From: an uncultured Cryomorphaceae bacterium
GTDB lineage: Bacteria > Bacteroidota > Bacteroidia > Flavobacteriales > Schleiferiaceae
Length of the DNA: 64,000 nucleotides
Reading direction: 5' to 3'
Assembly (NCBI GenBank): GCA_937120475.1
Contig: CAKZJV010000007.1
Coordinates: forward strand, 1,938,068-2,002,067
Every line of letters begins with the position of its first letter. Position 1 is the stretch's first letter. Below the pieces are notes generated by a model. That model saw only the letters and a program-made list of their open reading frames with translations. It did no database searches and was not told where the DNA came from. The position numbers and the translations under genes were made by a program. Positions 55,242-62,557 of this stretch are shown here, one piece after another.

Positions 55242-57020
55242 ATGGCAGGCACGCCTAACAGCCTCTTGGCAAGGTTTTTAATTTGGCGCGCCCGGCACCT
55301 TACGCAACGTCAGTTTGTATTAATCCTGAGTGTAGTTGTCGGTTTTTTAACCGGACTGGTAGCGGTTTTCCTGAAAAATTCCACCCACTTTATCCAGGGT
55401 CTGGTTACTTCGGATTACCTCACGGAATATTACAATCCATTCTATTTCGCCTTTCCCATTATCGGCATTCTTATTACTGTACTGATAAGGAGGATACTGA
55501 AAGGCACCAAGGTAGGTGAAGGGGTGCCTAACACCCTGTTTGCCATTTCGCGCAAAAACGGGATTATGCCTTCGGCCCAAATGTTCAGCCACATGATTAC
55601 CAGTATTTTTACCGTGGGCTTTGGAGGTTCGGTAGGGCTGGAAGGGCCTTCGGTAGGTACCGGGGCGGCCATTGGCTCCAACCTGGGGCGGTTGATGCAT
55701 ATCAACTACAAGTCGCGCATTTTACTGATCTCCTGTGCCGCGGCCGGTGCTATTGCTTCCATTTTTAACGCCCCTATTGCGGCCATCATTTTTACCATTG
55801 AAATTTTTAGCCTTGACCTCACCTTTGGTTCCTTGATTCCCTTGCTGCTGGCATCGGCCTCGGGGGCAGTTACCTCCATTTTCATCCAGGGGGGCGACTA
55901 TCTTTTTCACTATAAATCCATCGCCCCGTTTTCGGTAAAGGAAGTTCCCTTTTACATCCTCCTTGGAGTTTTAACCGCTTTTGTTTCCGTTTACTTTAAC
56001 CGCCTTTATTTTTACGTGGATGGCTTTTTCAGCCGCATCAACAAACCCGGTGTTCGAATAATAGTGGGGGGCGGCCTTTTGGGTTTACTCATTTTCTTAA
56101 TCCCTCCCCTTTACGGTGAAGGTTACGAAACCATCAACCACCTGCTTAACGGGAACCTGGACCAGGTAGTGGAGCGCAGTTTTCTCTACGATTATCTCAC
56201 CTCTGAATATCTGGTGCTGGCCCTGCTCATAGGTCTGGTACTGTTCAAGGGCTTCGCTACCACTTTTACCCTGGGTGCCGGGGGCGTGGGCGGTGTATTT
56301 GCTCCTTCCCTTTTTATAGGAGCTTCCTTTGGGTTTGTGTTTGCCCGTTTTTTGAATGAACTTAACTGGGTAACCCTATCTTCCACCAATTATGCCCTGG
56401 TGGGAATGGCCGGTTTAATGGCCGGGGTACTGCATGCGCCCCTTACGGCTGTGTTTATGATTGCGGAAATAACCGGAGGCTATGAGCTTTTCATACCCCT
56501 CATGCTGGTTTCGGCCATATCATTCCTGGTCACCCGTAAGCTTATGCCCCATTCCGTTTATACCATGCAGTTGGCACGCAGGGGCGATATCCTCACCCAT
56601 AACAAGGACCAGGTGATACTCACCTTATTGACCATTGACCGGGTATTGGAAAAAGACTTTAAAAAGGTGAACCCCGACATGTCGCTGGGAGAACTGGTAA
56701 AAGTGGTTAGCTCCAGCCGCAGAAACCTTTTCCCGGTGGTGGATGCAGAAGGCAAATTGGTAGGAGTGCTTACCCTCGATGACTTTCGCAATATCATGTT
56801 CGACCAATCTATTTACGAAACCACTTTTGTGTCGCAATTGATGAACCCGGCTCCAGCCATTATTGAGAAGAAAGAAAACATGAGCTCGGTGATGGAAAAA
56901 TTCCAGTCCACCGGTGCCTGGAACCTACCGGTCACAGAGGACGGCCGTTACCTGGGCTTTGTTTCCAAATCCAAGCTTTTCTCCGTGTACCGCAGAAAAT
57001 TACTCGAGTTTTCCGAGTAA
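55242..57020 (+). CDS. ClC-family chloride transporter with C-terminal CBS domains
   Basis: The 592-residue protein has a ClC membrane domain (residues ~20-440) with the three selectivity-filter motifs: GFGGSVGLEGPSVG (contains the gating Glu), GVGGVFAPSLFIGASFGF, and a Tyr-containing segment in the last third. Two CBS domains follow (~455-580, e.g. NLFPVVDAEGKLVGVLTLDDFRN and AWNLPVTEDGRYLGFVSKSK). It may be a chloride channel or a chloride/proton antiporter; motifs do not settle which. The ATG follows the aspS stop with no gap. Confidence 0.92.
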   Translation: MAGTPNSLLARFLIWRARHLTQRQFVLILSVVVGFLTGLVAVFLKNSTHFIQGLVTSDYLTEYYNPFYFAFPIIGILITVLIRRILKGTKVGEGVPNTLFAISRKNGIMPSAQMFSHMITSIFTVGFGGSVGLEGPSVGTGAAIGSNLGRLMHINYKSRILLISCAAAGAIASIFNAPIAAIIFTIEIFSLDLTFGSLIPLLLASASGAVTSIFIQGGDYLFHYKSIAPFSVKEVPFYILLGVLTAFVSVYFNRLYFYVDGFFSRINKPGVRIIVGGGLLGLLIFLIPPLYGEGYETINHLLNGNLDQVVERSFLYDYLTSEYLVLALLIGLVLFKGFATTFTLGAGGVGGVFAPSLFIGASFGFVFARFLNELNWVTLSSTNYALVGMAGLMAGVLHAPLTAVFMIAEITGGYELFIPLMLVSAISFLVTRKLMPHSVYTMQLARRGDILTHNKDQVILTLLTIDRVLEKDFKKVNPDMSLGELVKVVSSSRRNLFPVVDAEGKLVGVLTLDDFRNIMFDQSIYETTFVSQLMNPAPAIIEKKENMSSVMEKFQSTGAWNLPVTEDGRYLGFVSKSKLFSVYRRKLLEFSE

Positions 57021-57023
57021 ACC

Positions 57024-57795
57024 TTAAACGGATACCCTGGCCACCAGGATCACATAGTTGAAAATCCCTCCCGGTTTCGAAAGGTATTCATGAGTAATCG
57101 TACAACCCCTCTTGCTAAGCATAGAGCGATATTCCTTCAGGTCGTACTGATGGGGGTGTAAAACATCTCCGGGTATCAGGCGGAACAACCATTTGAGCAT
57201 ATTATAATTAAAGGTATTCATGAGTAATCGTACAACCCCTCTTGCTAAGCATAGAGCGATATTCCTTCAGGTCGTACTGATGGGGGTGTAAAACATCTCC
57301 GGGTATCAGGCGGAACAACCATTTGAGCATATTATAATTATGGGCATCTATGCTCAGTACCAAAGTAGAACCTTTTTTAGCGGCTGCCACCAATTTATCC
57401 GGGGCCAGTTCAATATCATGAACATGGTTAATAGCATTCAGGCAAAAAACATAGTCGAACATCTCCCGAAAATCCATCTCCTCCAGCGCTAAGGTTTGAA
57501 AATTCACATTGGGGTACCACCCCTTCTTAAAATGTGACAGTTCCTTATTATAAGTTTCCAGCAAAGGGTCAATAGCTGTTACGTTCTGCTGATCGAAAAT
57601 GGTAAATATCCCGGCTGGCCCACAGCCCGCATCCAGCACTTCGCCTTGCACCTGAGCACTTTTCAAATCGCATTCCTTTAACACTCTCCGCCAATAGGAC
57701 TTCTTATCGTGCAGGTATTGGTCCACCGGCTTTTGGCTGAGGTATTGTTTCCACCACCTTATTTCAAGGGCCTGAGCGAATTTCCATTTCATCAT
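57024..57795 (-). pseudogene. Class I SAM-dependent methyltransferase gene broken by a 130-bp tandem duplication
   Basis: Read on the minus strand, the gene starts at ATG 57795 with VLDAGCGPAGI (SAM-binding glycine loop, residues ~53-63), then VTAIDPLLETY and the motif region DYVFCLNAINHVHD. After 195 residues it ends at a TAA made at the junction of two identical 130-bp copies. The second copy continues in another frame as a 65-codon fragment (57024-57221), which supplies the missing C-terminal residues SKPGGIFNYVILVARVSV. Without the duplication a 213-residue methyltransferase would be read. Either copy number variation switches it off, or the sequence is misassembled. The substrate is unknown. 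Confidence 0.8.
57080..57340. repeat. Perfect tandem duplication, period 130 bp
   Basis: The 130 bp at 57081-57210 are repeated without any change at 57211-57340; with one shared flanking A the match covers 131 positions. 130 is not a multiple of three, so it shifts the reading frame of the methyltransferase gene. No other copy is seen in the window. Confidence 0.95.
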
Positions 57796-58020: not shown

Positions 58021-58048
58021 TGCTAACTTGGAAAATAACTAATTGATT

Positions 58049-61000
58049 ATGAGATACTTTTTATCCGTTGTTGCTACGGTAATGAGCATGAGTTTAATCG
58101 TTGCTCAAAATGCTGATTGGGTGGATATGATGCAGGATCCCAATGTGAATTTTTACACGGTACAGAGTGAGTTTGAAGATTACTGGGAAGGCCGTGAGAT
58201 TGAAAAAGGAAAGGGATGGAAACAATTCAAACGCTGGGAGGCCTTTATGGAACCCCGGGTTTATCCCGAGGGTGTTCGCCCGAATCCTTCGGTACTCGCC
58301 ACAGCTTTTGCACAGTTCAAGGCCTCACAAAACGGGACGGTATATGGTTCATGGAGCCCGATTGGCCCTTATAATGGGAACGCTCTGAACGGGGTAGGGC
58401 GCGTAAACCACATTACCCTCGACCCCAGCGATCCCAATACTGTTTGGGCCGGTACCCCGGCCGGTGGGTTATGGAAAAGTACAGATGGAGGGCTGACCTG
58501 GAGCACCAATACCGACCTTCTTACCAACCTGGGTGTTTCGGACATTGATATCGACCCCTCCAACACCAATGTGATGTACCTCTGTACTGGTGACCATGAC
58601 GGTACCGACACTTACAGTTTCGGGGTACTAAAATCCACCGATGGTGGTGCTACCTGGAATCCTACCGGTTTGAGTTATGGTGTTAGTCAACAGGTGCGGG
58701 TGGCCAACCTCATCATCAACCCCAATCAAACCAACGTATTGATTGCCACCACTAGTGCCGGTATTCAGCGCTCTACGGATGGTGGTAATACCTGGACAAC
58801 CCGGCAAGGCGGATTCTTTAACGCACTGGAGCAAAAGCCCGGTGACCCGAATGTTCTTTACGCCACTTCCAATACTCGTGTGTACAAGAGTACCAACAAT
58901 GGTATTACCTGGTCACTGCTACAAGGTACGGGACTGCCCACTTCGGGCATACGCAGAATTGAACTGGGTGTAACACCCGATGATCCCAATTACGTATACG
59001 CTTTGTACGGGGCCAGTAATAACGGTTACCTGGGTATGTTTCGCTCCACCGACTCTGGTAATAACTGGACTTTGCGCTCCTCAACCCCCAACCTGTTGGG
59101 CTGGAGTTCTACCGGAAGTGATGCCGGTGGTCAGGCCTGGTATGATCTGGCCGTGGCCGTAAACCCCAACGATAAAAATGAAGTGGTTGTGGGCGGTGTT
59201 AACGTATGGCAGTCCAGCAACGGTGGTAGCTCGTGGAATATCATCGGGCACTGGACCGGTAGTGGTGCGGCCTTTATTCACGCGGATATTCATTATCTGG
59301 GCTATACTTCTGACGGTGGTGCTCTTTATGCCGGTTGCGATGGCGGTGTGTACCGCAAAGATGATAACCAGTTTACCTGGACGGAACTCAACGATGGCAT
59401 GAACATCACCCAATACTACAAGTTAGGGGCTTCAGCCACCAACCCTGATCTTATTATTGCCGGTGCCCAGGATAATGGTACCGATCTTTATACCTCCGGT
59501 AATTGGTTTGGTGTTCGTGGCGGAGATGGTATGGAATGTGCCATTGATCCCGAAGATCCCGGTATTATGTACTCTTCCGTTTACTATGGGAATTTCCGCA
59601 AGTCCAACAACGGTGGAGCCAGTTTTAACGCTATTTTCAATCTGCCACCATCGGGTACCGGTAACTGGGTTACCCCATTTCTGATCGACCCCTTACACCC
59701 GGACACCCTCTATGCCGGTTTTTCACGGGTATTTCGTTCTACGGACGGTGGTGCTTCCTTTTCAGGAATAGGCCCCAACAACATTGCCGGTGGTTCCAAC
59801 CTGGATCAAATGGCACTATCACCCACCCATACCAATGTTCTATACGTTTCAGAAGGTAGCCGCTTATGGCGCAGTGATAATCACGGAGCTAGCTTTACCA
59901 GCCTCTCCACACCGGGCAACCGTGCTATTACCTACATCGGGGTTTCCTACCATGATCCGATGCACGTGGTAATTACCCGGAGTGGTTATAGCGGTGGACA
60001 AAAAGTATATGAGTCTAAAGACGGTGGCAGTACCTGGACCAACATTTCTGCCAACCTGCCCAATGTACCGGCCAACTGTATAACGTTTGAGGACGGAACG
60101 GCCAACGGGATGTACGTGGGTACTGATATCGGTGTTTTTTACCGTGATAAAAACCGCTCAGAATGGGTTTCCTTCAACAACAATTTGCCCCGGGTAATCG
60201 TCAATGAAATTGAGATCAATTACGTGGACCGCAATCTTAAAATTGCCACCTATGGCCGGGGAGTGTGGGAATCACCCTTATTCTCCGACCTGTCCAAACC
60301 CTTCCCCGAAGCGGGTTTCCCGGAGCTGGTCTGTTCCGGTGATACCGTAAAGCTGGAAGATCGTTCGCATTATTTCCCCACCAGCCGCAGTTGGAATATT
60401 ACCCCGGCTACTTTCACTTTTGTGAACGGAACCAATGCAACCTCTGCTAATCCTGAAATTGTATTTAACCAGCCCGGTATTTATGATATTGAATTGACGG
60501 TGACCAATGCCCTGGGTTCCGATACACGCCATTACATTTCAGCTATTGCCTATGGTGGTTTGCCCTTACCCTTTGTGGAGGATTTTGAAGCCTCCAACAG
60601 TTTTGACCGCTGGAGAACGGACGGCACGGATCAGAATACCTGGAGTCGCAGTTCAGTTTCAGGTAACAACCCAGGCAGTTTTGCCGCCCGAGCCAGTCTT
60701 TATTTCAATTCCAACTCTTATGAATTGGTATCTCCCACCATCAGCTTTGTCGGTCATGATTCCGTAAGTATGAGTTTTGATTACGCCTACCGCGGCCGGG
60801 CTGGAAATACCAATGATACTTTAAGGGTTTACATTGCCACACAATGCCAAAACAATTGGGTTTTACTCAACGAATATTATGAGGACGGTAGCTCCAATTT
60901 TGTAACCGTTGGCAGCCCACAAAACTCTGACTTTGTGCCTGCCTCCTCCAGCGACTGGTGTGGAAATCCCGGTTTCGGAGCCTGCAAAACCATTGACCTC

Positions 61001-62557
61001 TCCACTTATGACGGATTGGAAGGCGTACGCCTTAAGTTTGAGGTAGGGCAAGCCGGTGGTAATAACCTGTACCTCGATAATATTAATATTAGTGGCAACA
61101 CCAACATTGCACCTACCGCTGCTTTTAGCGGACCACAAAGCAATTGCGCCTTGAAGCCCGTTACTTTTATCGATCATTCTTACGGGTCACCGGCTCTTTA
61201 CGAGTGGACCCTCACCGGGGCTACACCGGCAACTTCGGCCAGCCGTAATCCGCAGGTTACTTATACCGCTGCGGGTACCTACCCGGTAAAGCTTAAAGTT
61301 AGCAATGCCCTGGGTGAAGACTCCATAATAAGGACTTCGTATATCACTATCGACCCGGCCGACTCGGTGTTGGTTGACCTGGTAAGCAACAGCCCGACTA
61401 CCCTTTGCTATAACGATACTTTAAAGGTTACCCTCAATGCTTCCAACCCAGGCACGGATGCGGTATATTCCTGGTATCGTAATGGCTCTCGTATGGCTTT
61501 CGGTTCTGTACCGTCCTACAATTACCTGGGGCTAAACGATGGGGACTTTGTATATGCCACGGTAGAATCATCCGAGGAGTGTGCTTTCCCTGAAAATGTA
61601 TTTTCCGATACCATTTTTGTGAGTGTTTATGCCCGCCCTACGGTACAGGCCAATGCTGTACCCAGCCTTTGTGTTACCGACAGCGCCTACAGTCTTTCGG
61701 GTACCCCTGCGGGAGGAACATTTACCGGTTTTGGCGTACAGGCAAATGCCTTTGACCCTTCTGTAACCGGCTCCGGTTTTCATACCGTTACCTACAATTA
61801 TACCGATACCAATGGTTGTGTAAATACCGCCACCCGTACCATCAGGGTAGATGCCCCGGCCACGGTTAACTTTACCAGCCCGGGAGTATTCTGCGAAGGT
61901 GAGAGCCAGATATCCCTGAATACCGGTACACCTGCAGGTGGTACATATTCCGGTCCCGGGGTTTATGGTAACCTCTTTTACCCGGATTCCGTTGGAACCG
62001 GAACCTTCCCCATTACCTATGCCTACGCATCGGGTACTTGTGATACGGTAACTGCAAACAGCACGGTGGTAGTGGCCCCACAACCCGCTAAGCCCAGTGT
62101 TATTATGGTAGGCACCACCCTGCAATGTGTGCAAACCGGTTTTACCTATCAATGGTATCGCGGTAGCTCCCCTATTTTCAATGCCCGTTTCAGGAATTAT
62201 AATCCTACCGTTGACGGTAGCTATTGGGTTCAGATTACCGATGGGAACGGTTGCACCAATGTTTCCGATACTGTTCAATACTTCATTGGCCAGGAAGAGT
62301 TTGAAAATGTTCTTTCCTTCTCGGTTTTCCCCAATCCTGCTTCGGACATTCTGCGCCTGGAACTCGAAACCAGTACTGCGGTTGAGGCTAGCTTATTCAT
62401 CTTTAACAATGTGGGGCAATTGCTAATGGAAAAGAGGTTGGACAAATCCAGTCGTATTTCCGAAGGACTTAATGTTTCTGAATTGCCTTCCGGTCTTTAT
62501 ATACTTTCCATTGAAGGGAAAAGTCTGAACCTGAACCAAAGGTTTGTGATTGAATAG
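58049..62557 (+). CDS. Giant T9SS-secreted Asp-box (BNR/sortilin-like) protein with PKD domains
   Basis: From ATG 58049 the protein has 1502 residues. A signal peptide (~1-20) is followed by a charged N-terminal region and a propeller part (~90-750) with at least ten Asp-box units such as STDGGLTW, STDGGATW, STNNGITW and SKDGGSTW, as in sialidase/sortilin-like beta-propellers. Next come a PKD-like domain (~755-840), a jelly-roll of the MAM/cleaved-adhesin type (~845-1020, FVEDFEASNSFDRW), a second PKD (~1030-1110), Ig-like segments, and a T9SS sorting domain (FSVFPNPASDILRLEL). Asp-box propellers need not be sialidases; no catalytic set is evident. It is likely a surface glycan-binding or adhesin protein. 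Confidence 0.85.
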   Translation: MRYFLSVVATVMSMSLIVAQNADWVDMMQDPNVNFYTVQSEFEDYWEGREIEKGKGWKQFKRWEAFMEPRVYPEGVRPNPSVLATAFAQFKASQNGTVYGSWSPIGPYNGNALNGVGRVNHITLDPSDPNTVWAGTPAGGLWKSTDGGLTWSTNTDLLTNLGVSDIDIDPSNTNVMYLCTGDHDGTDTYSFGVLKSTDGGATWNPTGLSYGVSQQVRVANLIINPNQTNVLIATTSAGIQRSTDGGNTWTTRQGGFFNALEQKPGDPNVLYATSNTRVYKSTNNGITWSLLQGTGLPTSGIRRIELGVTPDDPNYVYALYGASNNGYLGMFRSTDSGNNWTLRSSTPNLLGWSSTGSDAGGQAWYDLAVAVNPNDKNEVVVGGVNVWQSSNGGSSWNIIGHWTGSGAAFIHADIHYLGYTSDGGALYAGCDGGVYRKDDNQFTWTELNDGMNITQYYKLGASATNPDLIIAGAQDNGTDLYTSGNWFGVRGGDGMECAIDPEDPGIMYSSVYYGNFRKSNNGGASFNAIFNLPPSGTGNWVTPFLIDPLHPDTLYAGFSRVFRSTDGGASFSGIGPNNIAGGSNLDQMALSPTHTNVLYVSEGSRLWRSDNHGASFTSLSTPGNRAITYIGVSYHDPMHVVITRSGYSGGQKVYESKDGGSTWTNISANLPNVPANCITFEDGTANGMYVGTDIGVFYRDKNRSEWVSFNNNLPRVIVNEIEINYVDRNLKIATYGRGVWESPLFSDLSKPFPEAGFPELVCSGDTVKLEDRSHYFPTSRSWNITPATFTFVNGTNATSANPEIVFNQPGIYDIELTVTNALGSDTRHYISAIAYGGLPLPFVEDFEASNSFDRWRTDGTDQNTWSRSSVSGNNPGSFAARASLYFNSNSYELVSPTISFVGHDSVSMSFDYAYRGRAGNTNDTLRVYIATQCQNNWVLLNEYYEDGSSNFVTVGSPQNSDFVPASSSDWCGNPGFGACKTIDLSTYDGLEGVRLKFEVGQAGGNNLYLDNINISGNTNIAPTAAFSGPQSNCALKPVTFIDHSYGSPALYEWTLTGATPATSASRNPQVTYTAAGTYPVKLKVSNALGEDSIIRTSYITIDPADSVLVDLVSNSPTTLCYNDTLKVTLNASNPGTDAVYSWYRNGSRMAFGSVPSYNYLGLNDGDFVYATVESSEECAFPENVFSDTIFVSVYARPTVQANAVPSLCVTDSAYSLSGTPAGGTFTGFGVQANAFDPSVTGSGFHTVTYNYTDTNGCVNTATRTIRVDAPATVNFTSPGVFCEGESQISLNTGTPAGGTYSGPGVYGNLFYPDSVGTGTFPITYAYASGTCDTVTANSTVVVAPQPAKPSVIMVGTTLQCVQTGFTYQWYRGSSPIFNARFRNYNPTVDGSYWVQITDGNGCTNVSDTVQYFIGQEEFENVLSFSVFPNPASDILRLELETSTAVEASLFIFNNVGQLLMEKRLDKSSRISEGLNVSELPSGLYILSIEGKSLNLNQRFVIE

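Follow-up and report, generated by a model that had tools for sequence, protein, structure and literature searches.

The window analyzed here, a 64-kb stretch of DNA, contains four consecutive genes in the order aspartyl-tRNA synthetase, CLC-type channel, methyltransferase, and large secreted protein. The names of the synthetase and the channel, as well as the secreted and repetitive nature of the last product, are presumptive assignments made from the sequences. Within the methyltransferase gene lies an exact head-to-tail duplication of a 130-bp unit, the two copies of which are 100% identical and spaced by 130 bp (Table 1). Tandem Repeats Finder recorded it as a row at 57080-57340 with a period of 130 and 100% matches, the sole row that it returned for the 64 kb. 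An earlier note on this DNA, made from the letters alone, had described copies identical over 131 positions, and the self-match at an offset of 130 is indeed an exact run of 131 bases. The duplication breakpoints are consequently ambiguous by one shared base, and a chance origin can reasonably be ruled out for an exact repeat of this length. When the 130-bp unit was used to search its own 3.65-Mb genome at the DNA level (E ≤ 0.001), the only matches were the two copies themselves.

Table 1. Genes, reading frames, and repeat copies at the methyltransferase locus (positions in the window)
Feature	Position	Strand	Basis
Presumed CLC-type chloride channel gene; convergent neighbor, conserved in relatives	55242..57020	+	
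Other-frame ORF, 65 aa; product of the second copy plus the C-terminal 18 residues of the family	57024..57221	-	
130-bp unit, second copy in gene order, out of frame	57080..57209	-	
Class I SAM-dependent methyltransferase ORF, cut short to 195 aa by a TAA at the duplication junction	57208..57795	-	ORF list, PF13489, alignment
130-bp unit, first copy in gene order, in the frame of the gene	57210..57339	-	
Presumed large secreted repeat protein gene; adjoins the channel gene in several relatives	58043..62557	+	

The reading frame ends exactly where the copies meet, as the earlier note had also stated: a TAA on the minus strand is formed by the last base of the first copy and the first two bases of the second. 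The resulting 195-aa product lacks the last 18 residues of its family, and these remain encoded in another frame, in agreement with the earlier claim that the duplication is out of frame. Residues 6-62 of the 65-aa ORF align to residues 154-210 of the homolog L015 at 61% identity. Since the missing C-terminus is encoded after the second copy and aligns to this homolog, it is the duplication that accounts for the truncation, rather than membership in a short family.

The methyltransferase family and the truncated product

The 195-aa product scores above the Pfam gathering cut-offs of PF13489 (Methyltransf_23; 41.5 vs. 27, E 1.5e-10) and, for Methyltransf_25/11, of PF13649 (32.9 vs. 27) and PF08241 (32.7 vs. 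21.2), and just under those of PF08242 (28.2 vs. 30) and PF13847 (26.4 vs. 27). With three Pfam methyltransferase families above gathering score, the earlier description of the gene as a methyltransferase is well founded. No NCBIfam equivalog profile placed the 195-aa product above its cut-off. The UbiG equivalog (TIGR01983) reached 41.4 bits against a curated cut-off of 102.95 and was rejected, as were BchM, BioC, and CmoB, for each of which the product scored under the cut-off. A sequence search of the PDB with the methyltransferase matched methyltransferases of other kinds, while plasmids yielded no match to the query. Among viral contigs, an exact search with a 32-base segment of the repeat gave 0 matches, and none of the 39 stretches that fitted a pattern was a relative.

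A pattern scan of GTDB species genomes, the reach of which is confined to close relatives, returned 33 stretches, 21 of them encoding a relative at 44-56% identity. By their titles, all come from Bacteroidota, with numerous MAGs of Saprospiraceae and Chitinophagales among them. Every one of the 21 homologs extends past the truncation point, with lengths of 210-229 aa (the 229 of L021 includes upstream codons that lack a start), which fits the 213 residues that had been proposed for the undisturbed protein. We aligned the protein of the window with 20 of them, omitting L026 due to four X in its C-terminal tail, and obtained 46 invariant columns, including the block LHPHQYDLKEY. Upstream of the truncation lie both this HPHQYDLKEY block and the SAM-binding motif. 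Tail columns are missing from the invariant list because the row of the 195-aa product has gaps there; a tail phenylalanine at alignment column 208 is nevertheless conserved in 90% or more. Overall, all but one of the 26 other family members keep the tail in frame (the 21 from the GTDB scan, where that of L026 holds the four X, plus five further homologs). The remaining member, L130 of genome G255 (L130:1495-2145), is interrupted by an in-frame TAG, placed 21 codons short of the natural end and near the point where the 195-aa product is truncated, and its tail is still recognizable behind this stop.

The AlphaFold2 model of a full-length homolog, L018, has a mean pLDDT of 90.9 and closes with terminal strands at residues 188-197 and 202-211, the C-terminal strand pair by which we judged a fold to be complete. 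Its best solved-structure matches include NodS 3ofk (rank 1) and UbiG 4kdc (rank 4). In the corresponding model of the 195-aa product (mean pLDDT 86.8), neither terminal strand is present: the second is missing, coil stands in place of the first, and the last 10 residues are coil. Judged by these models, the 195-aa product appears to be a broken member of the class I methyltransferase fold, and without the terminal strand pair it is likely to be unstable or inactive. The earlier note had held that the duplication inactivates the gene, which the missing strand pair renders likely, although the step from the loss of just the last 18 residues to a loss of function is itself an extrapolation.

Genomic context and origin of the gene

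Compared with the congener G002, the synthetase-channel DNA is 77% identical over 3.0 kb and the secreted-protein DNA is 71% identical over 1.3 kb. The spacer between the channel stop and the start of the secreted protein is about 1022 bp in the window. The congeners G002 and G001 have about 135 and 155 bp there, respectively, and in both of them the syntenic spacer is devoid of a methyltransferase. The secreted protein was recognized in the loci of 14 of 29 relatives, with spacers of 116-181 bp in nine and 557-973 bp in five, where the starts of the secreted protein are extrapolated from alignments and two of the five long spacers rest on weak partial matches. None of the 29 channel loci, taken as ~1.5 kb on either side of the channel gene, contains a methyltransferase (best tblastn E 0.22). 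Of 59 other close relatives, nine have a match at E ≤ 0.001 (best E 2.2e-9), but at identities of 23-35% these matches are other methyltransferases. At the same threshold, the genome of the window itself has no further match besides the second copy, and in a sample of the phylum a relative is carried by 5 of 394 other genomes at E ≤ 1e-30.

The G+C content of the methyltransferase gene is 44.6%, compared with 48.8% and 49.3% for its neighbors and 46.4% for the window, which may be taken as weak evidence of a foreign origin. The simplest reading of the distribution is that the gene was gained laterally by the host species, while gene loss in the relatives is a less likely alternative. Against a lateral gain stands the variability of the spacer itself, given the five long spacers among the 14 relatives. 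In a tree of 23 rows, to which the motif filter admitted just L130 of the five loci L127-L131, no well-supported group holds the methyltransferase of the window and no donor was resolved. Several protein families recur beside the homologs. A family of ~340 aa adjoins the methyltransferase in at least 9 of 21 loci (L015, L017, L018, L019, L022, L025, L028, L029, and L030), with an Smr domain in the three members scanned. A 451-aa family lies beside it in at least 6 of 21 loci (an NtrC-like regulator in the one member scanned), and a family of 241-349 aa in at least 4 of 21 (DUF2279 in the two scanned). These counts are lower bounds because several homolog contigs are short. Such recurrence may be plain lineage synteny, and we set it aside as evidence of function.

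Origin and interpretation of the duplication

The breakpoints of the duplication share one base of microhomology. Within 20 bases of them, direct and inverted matches extend to at most 4 bases each and same-strand complementary matches to 5 bases; 99%, 98.7%, and 67.1%, respectively, of 1000 random pairs of positions 130 bp apart in the window did at least as well. As the matches are no longer than those of random pairs, no tested sequence feature marks the site. Slippage between flanking direct repeats was thus rejected as a visible cause, since there is only the 1-base microhomology and the rest is no better than random. The same applies to same-strand complementary sequences of the type described in PMC4169377, given the proportion of random pairs that match as well. 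With 0 differences in 130 sites, the divergence of the copies is under about 2.3% at 95%. The earlier note had read perfect identity as a sign of either a very recent event or a switchable locus. A very recent event is plausible but loosely bounded, given the limit of about 2.3% on divergence; repeated turnover between the copies would likewise keep them alike.

The duplication is not the sole exact tandem array with a unit >100 bp, although such arrays are rare. Counting exact arrays and leaving out imperfect ones such as that of L081, we found two in 864 kb of the contig (two 400-kb samples plus the window), none in 400 kb of the relative G005, and one in 324 kb comprising the 21 homolog loci. 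The second array of the contig (L084:2090-2388; G000:C7 near 2612090) is exact, with about 2.6 copies of a 114-bp unit, and starts inside the 3’ end of a tRNA-Leu(CAA) gene. The array among the homolog loci (L031:8236-8572; JAIBAX010000003.1, a Chitinophagales MAG) is intergenic and consists of exact 140-bp units with a diverged copy behind them. The imperfect array at L081:10644-11600 (approximate coordinates) has a period of ~120 bp and shows up as exact self-matches, 42-103 bases long, when the sequence is offset by 120 to 600.

In our assessment, a single frameshifting tandem duplication probably hit a non-essential, laterally acquired methyltransferase gene, as an ordinary loss-of-function mutation and not as a regulated switch. 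The 130-bp duplication in this presumably dispensable, foreign gene would have arisen by slippage during replication or by an illegitimate joining event at a single base of microhomology. The frameshift would then have led to the junction stop, the loss of the last beta strand, and an unstable or inactive protein, and the null allele could lose one copy again, like any perfect direct repeat of such length. Against this account, the remainder of the gene shows no visible decay following the duplication, the TAG of L130 close to the same position could indicate a dispensable last strand, and the duplication may be a minority allele or a product of assembly. The latter, in which overlapping ends were joined unmerged or a repeat was mis-resolved, is unlikely but carries appreciable weight, as perfect identity and a lack of breakpoint homology are expected from an unmerged overlap and the genome is a 9-contig draft. 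The position of the duplication inside a 3.04-Mb contig argues mildly in the other direction, as does the unit length of the other long exact array: 130 and 114 bp provide no recurring overlap length, contrary to a systematic overlap error, within a comparison covering 864 kb of the contig, out of a 3.65-Mb genome. Ns were counted in the first 400 kb of the contig and in the window, and none were present. It is rather improbable that the 195-aa protein is still functional, with a dispensable last strand and a nearly neutral duplication. Such tolerance is what the stop of L130 speaks for, and both the SAM-binding motif and HPHQYDLKEY lie ahead of the truncation; however, the other 25 members keep the tail with its conserved phenylalanine at column 208, and the truncated model lacks the terminal strand pair. 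A functional product would be compatible with the mutational account favored above, and the confidences we attach to the rival readings therefore overlap.

The earlier note had also suggested a switchable locus. A reversible phase-variable gene, toggled off and on by gain and loss of a 130-bp copy as in the pneumococcal capsule genes, seems to us quite doubtful, even though the duplication is exact, intragenic, and frameshifting in a gene otherwise without stops, and even though the reversion of perfect duplications is documented for penA and the pneumococcal capsule. The duplication was seen in a single genome, and the 21 homologs of the GTDB scan are free of exact tandem repeats in the gene; in the five further homologs, no tandem repeat was apparent on inspection of the translated frames. 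There are also no promoting repeats at the breakpoints, both neighboring genes are on the opposite strand, and the secreted-looking neighbor occurs in relatives that lack the methyltransferase. The suggestion of a switch is thus left with no positive support from homolog repeats, short-unit repeats, or notable direct repeats at the breakpoints. A simple-sequence contingency locus was rejected, because the sole Tandem Repeats Finder row in the window comprises two copies of 130 bp and not many short units. We consider it very improbable that the allele represents an evolved off or split state, in which one- and two-copy alleles are maintained or the second ORF is re-initiated to supply the missing strand pair. 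The ATG of the second ORF lies about 11 bases before the stop of the first, and if such a state did exist, the independent stop of L130 would point to a site near the end of the fold where splitting is tolerated. Most likely, then, the allele is an ordinary null mutation with the potential to revert, and loss of one copy is a likely further mutation by analogy with the precedents. More broadly, perfect frameshifting duplications are null alleles with a potential for reversal, which an annotation would list as pseudogenes. The present case offers a clean Bacteroidota example in a gene missing from the congeners searched and could serve to test the frequency of natural reversion.

Comparison with known systems

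The methyltransferase of the window has its fold and SAM motif in common with the class I SAM-dependent methyltransferases UbiG, NodS, and BioC, but differs from them in its own conserved block HPHQYDLKEY and in scores far below the equivalog cut-offs. For the duplication, pneumococcal capsule genes are one point of reference. Waite and colleagues are said to have reported, in 2001 and 2003, duplications in the type 3 locus, cap8E, and tts together with phase variation; the type 3 case presumably concerns cap3A. The defining feature of these cases, an exact tandem duplication within an ORF that interrupts its product, is present in the window as well. Sequence duplications arising within capsule genes of pneumococci are described (PMC4022640, PMC4243769), and capsule loss through spontaneous sequence duplication is contrasted with an irreversible mutation (PMC4243769). 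There, as here, a spontaneous duplication within an ORF abolishes the product, or likely does so in our case; however, phase variation is reported for the capsule genes, whereas the gene in the window has no known link to a capsule. The second point of reference is penA of Burkholderia thailandensis, the repeats of which, according to PMC4169377, are likewise exact, two-copy, intragenic, and revertible, some of them without bordering direct repeats. By the same source, those repeats have 9-60-bp units that leave the reading frame undisturbed and alter the substrate range, whereas the 130-bp unit of the window breaks the frame. A 60-bp penA duplication reverted at 3.6e-5 and a shorter unit at 9.3e-7 (PMC4169377), and from these precedents, together with those of the capsule genes, the allele in the window should work alike in principle.
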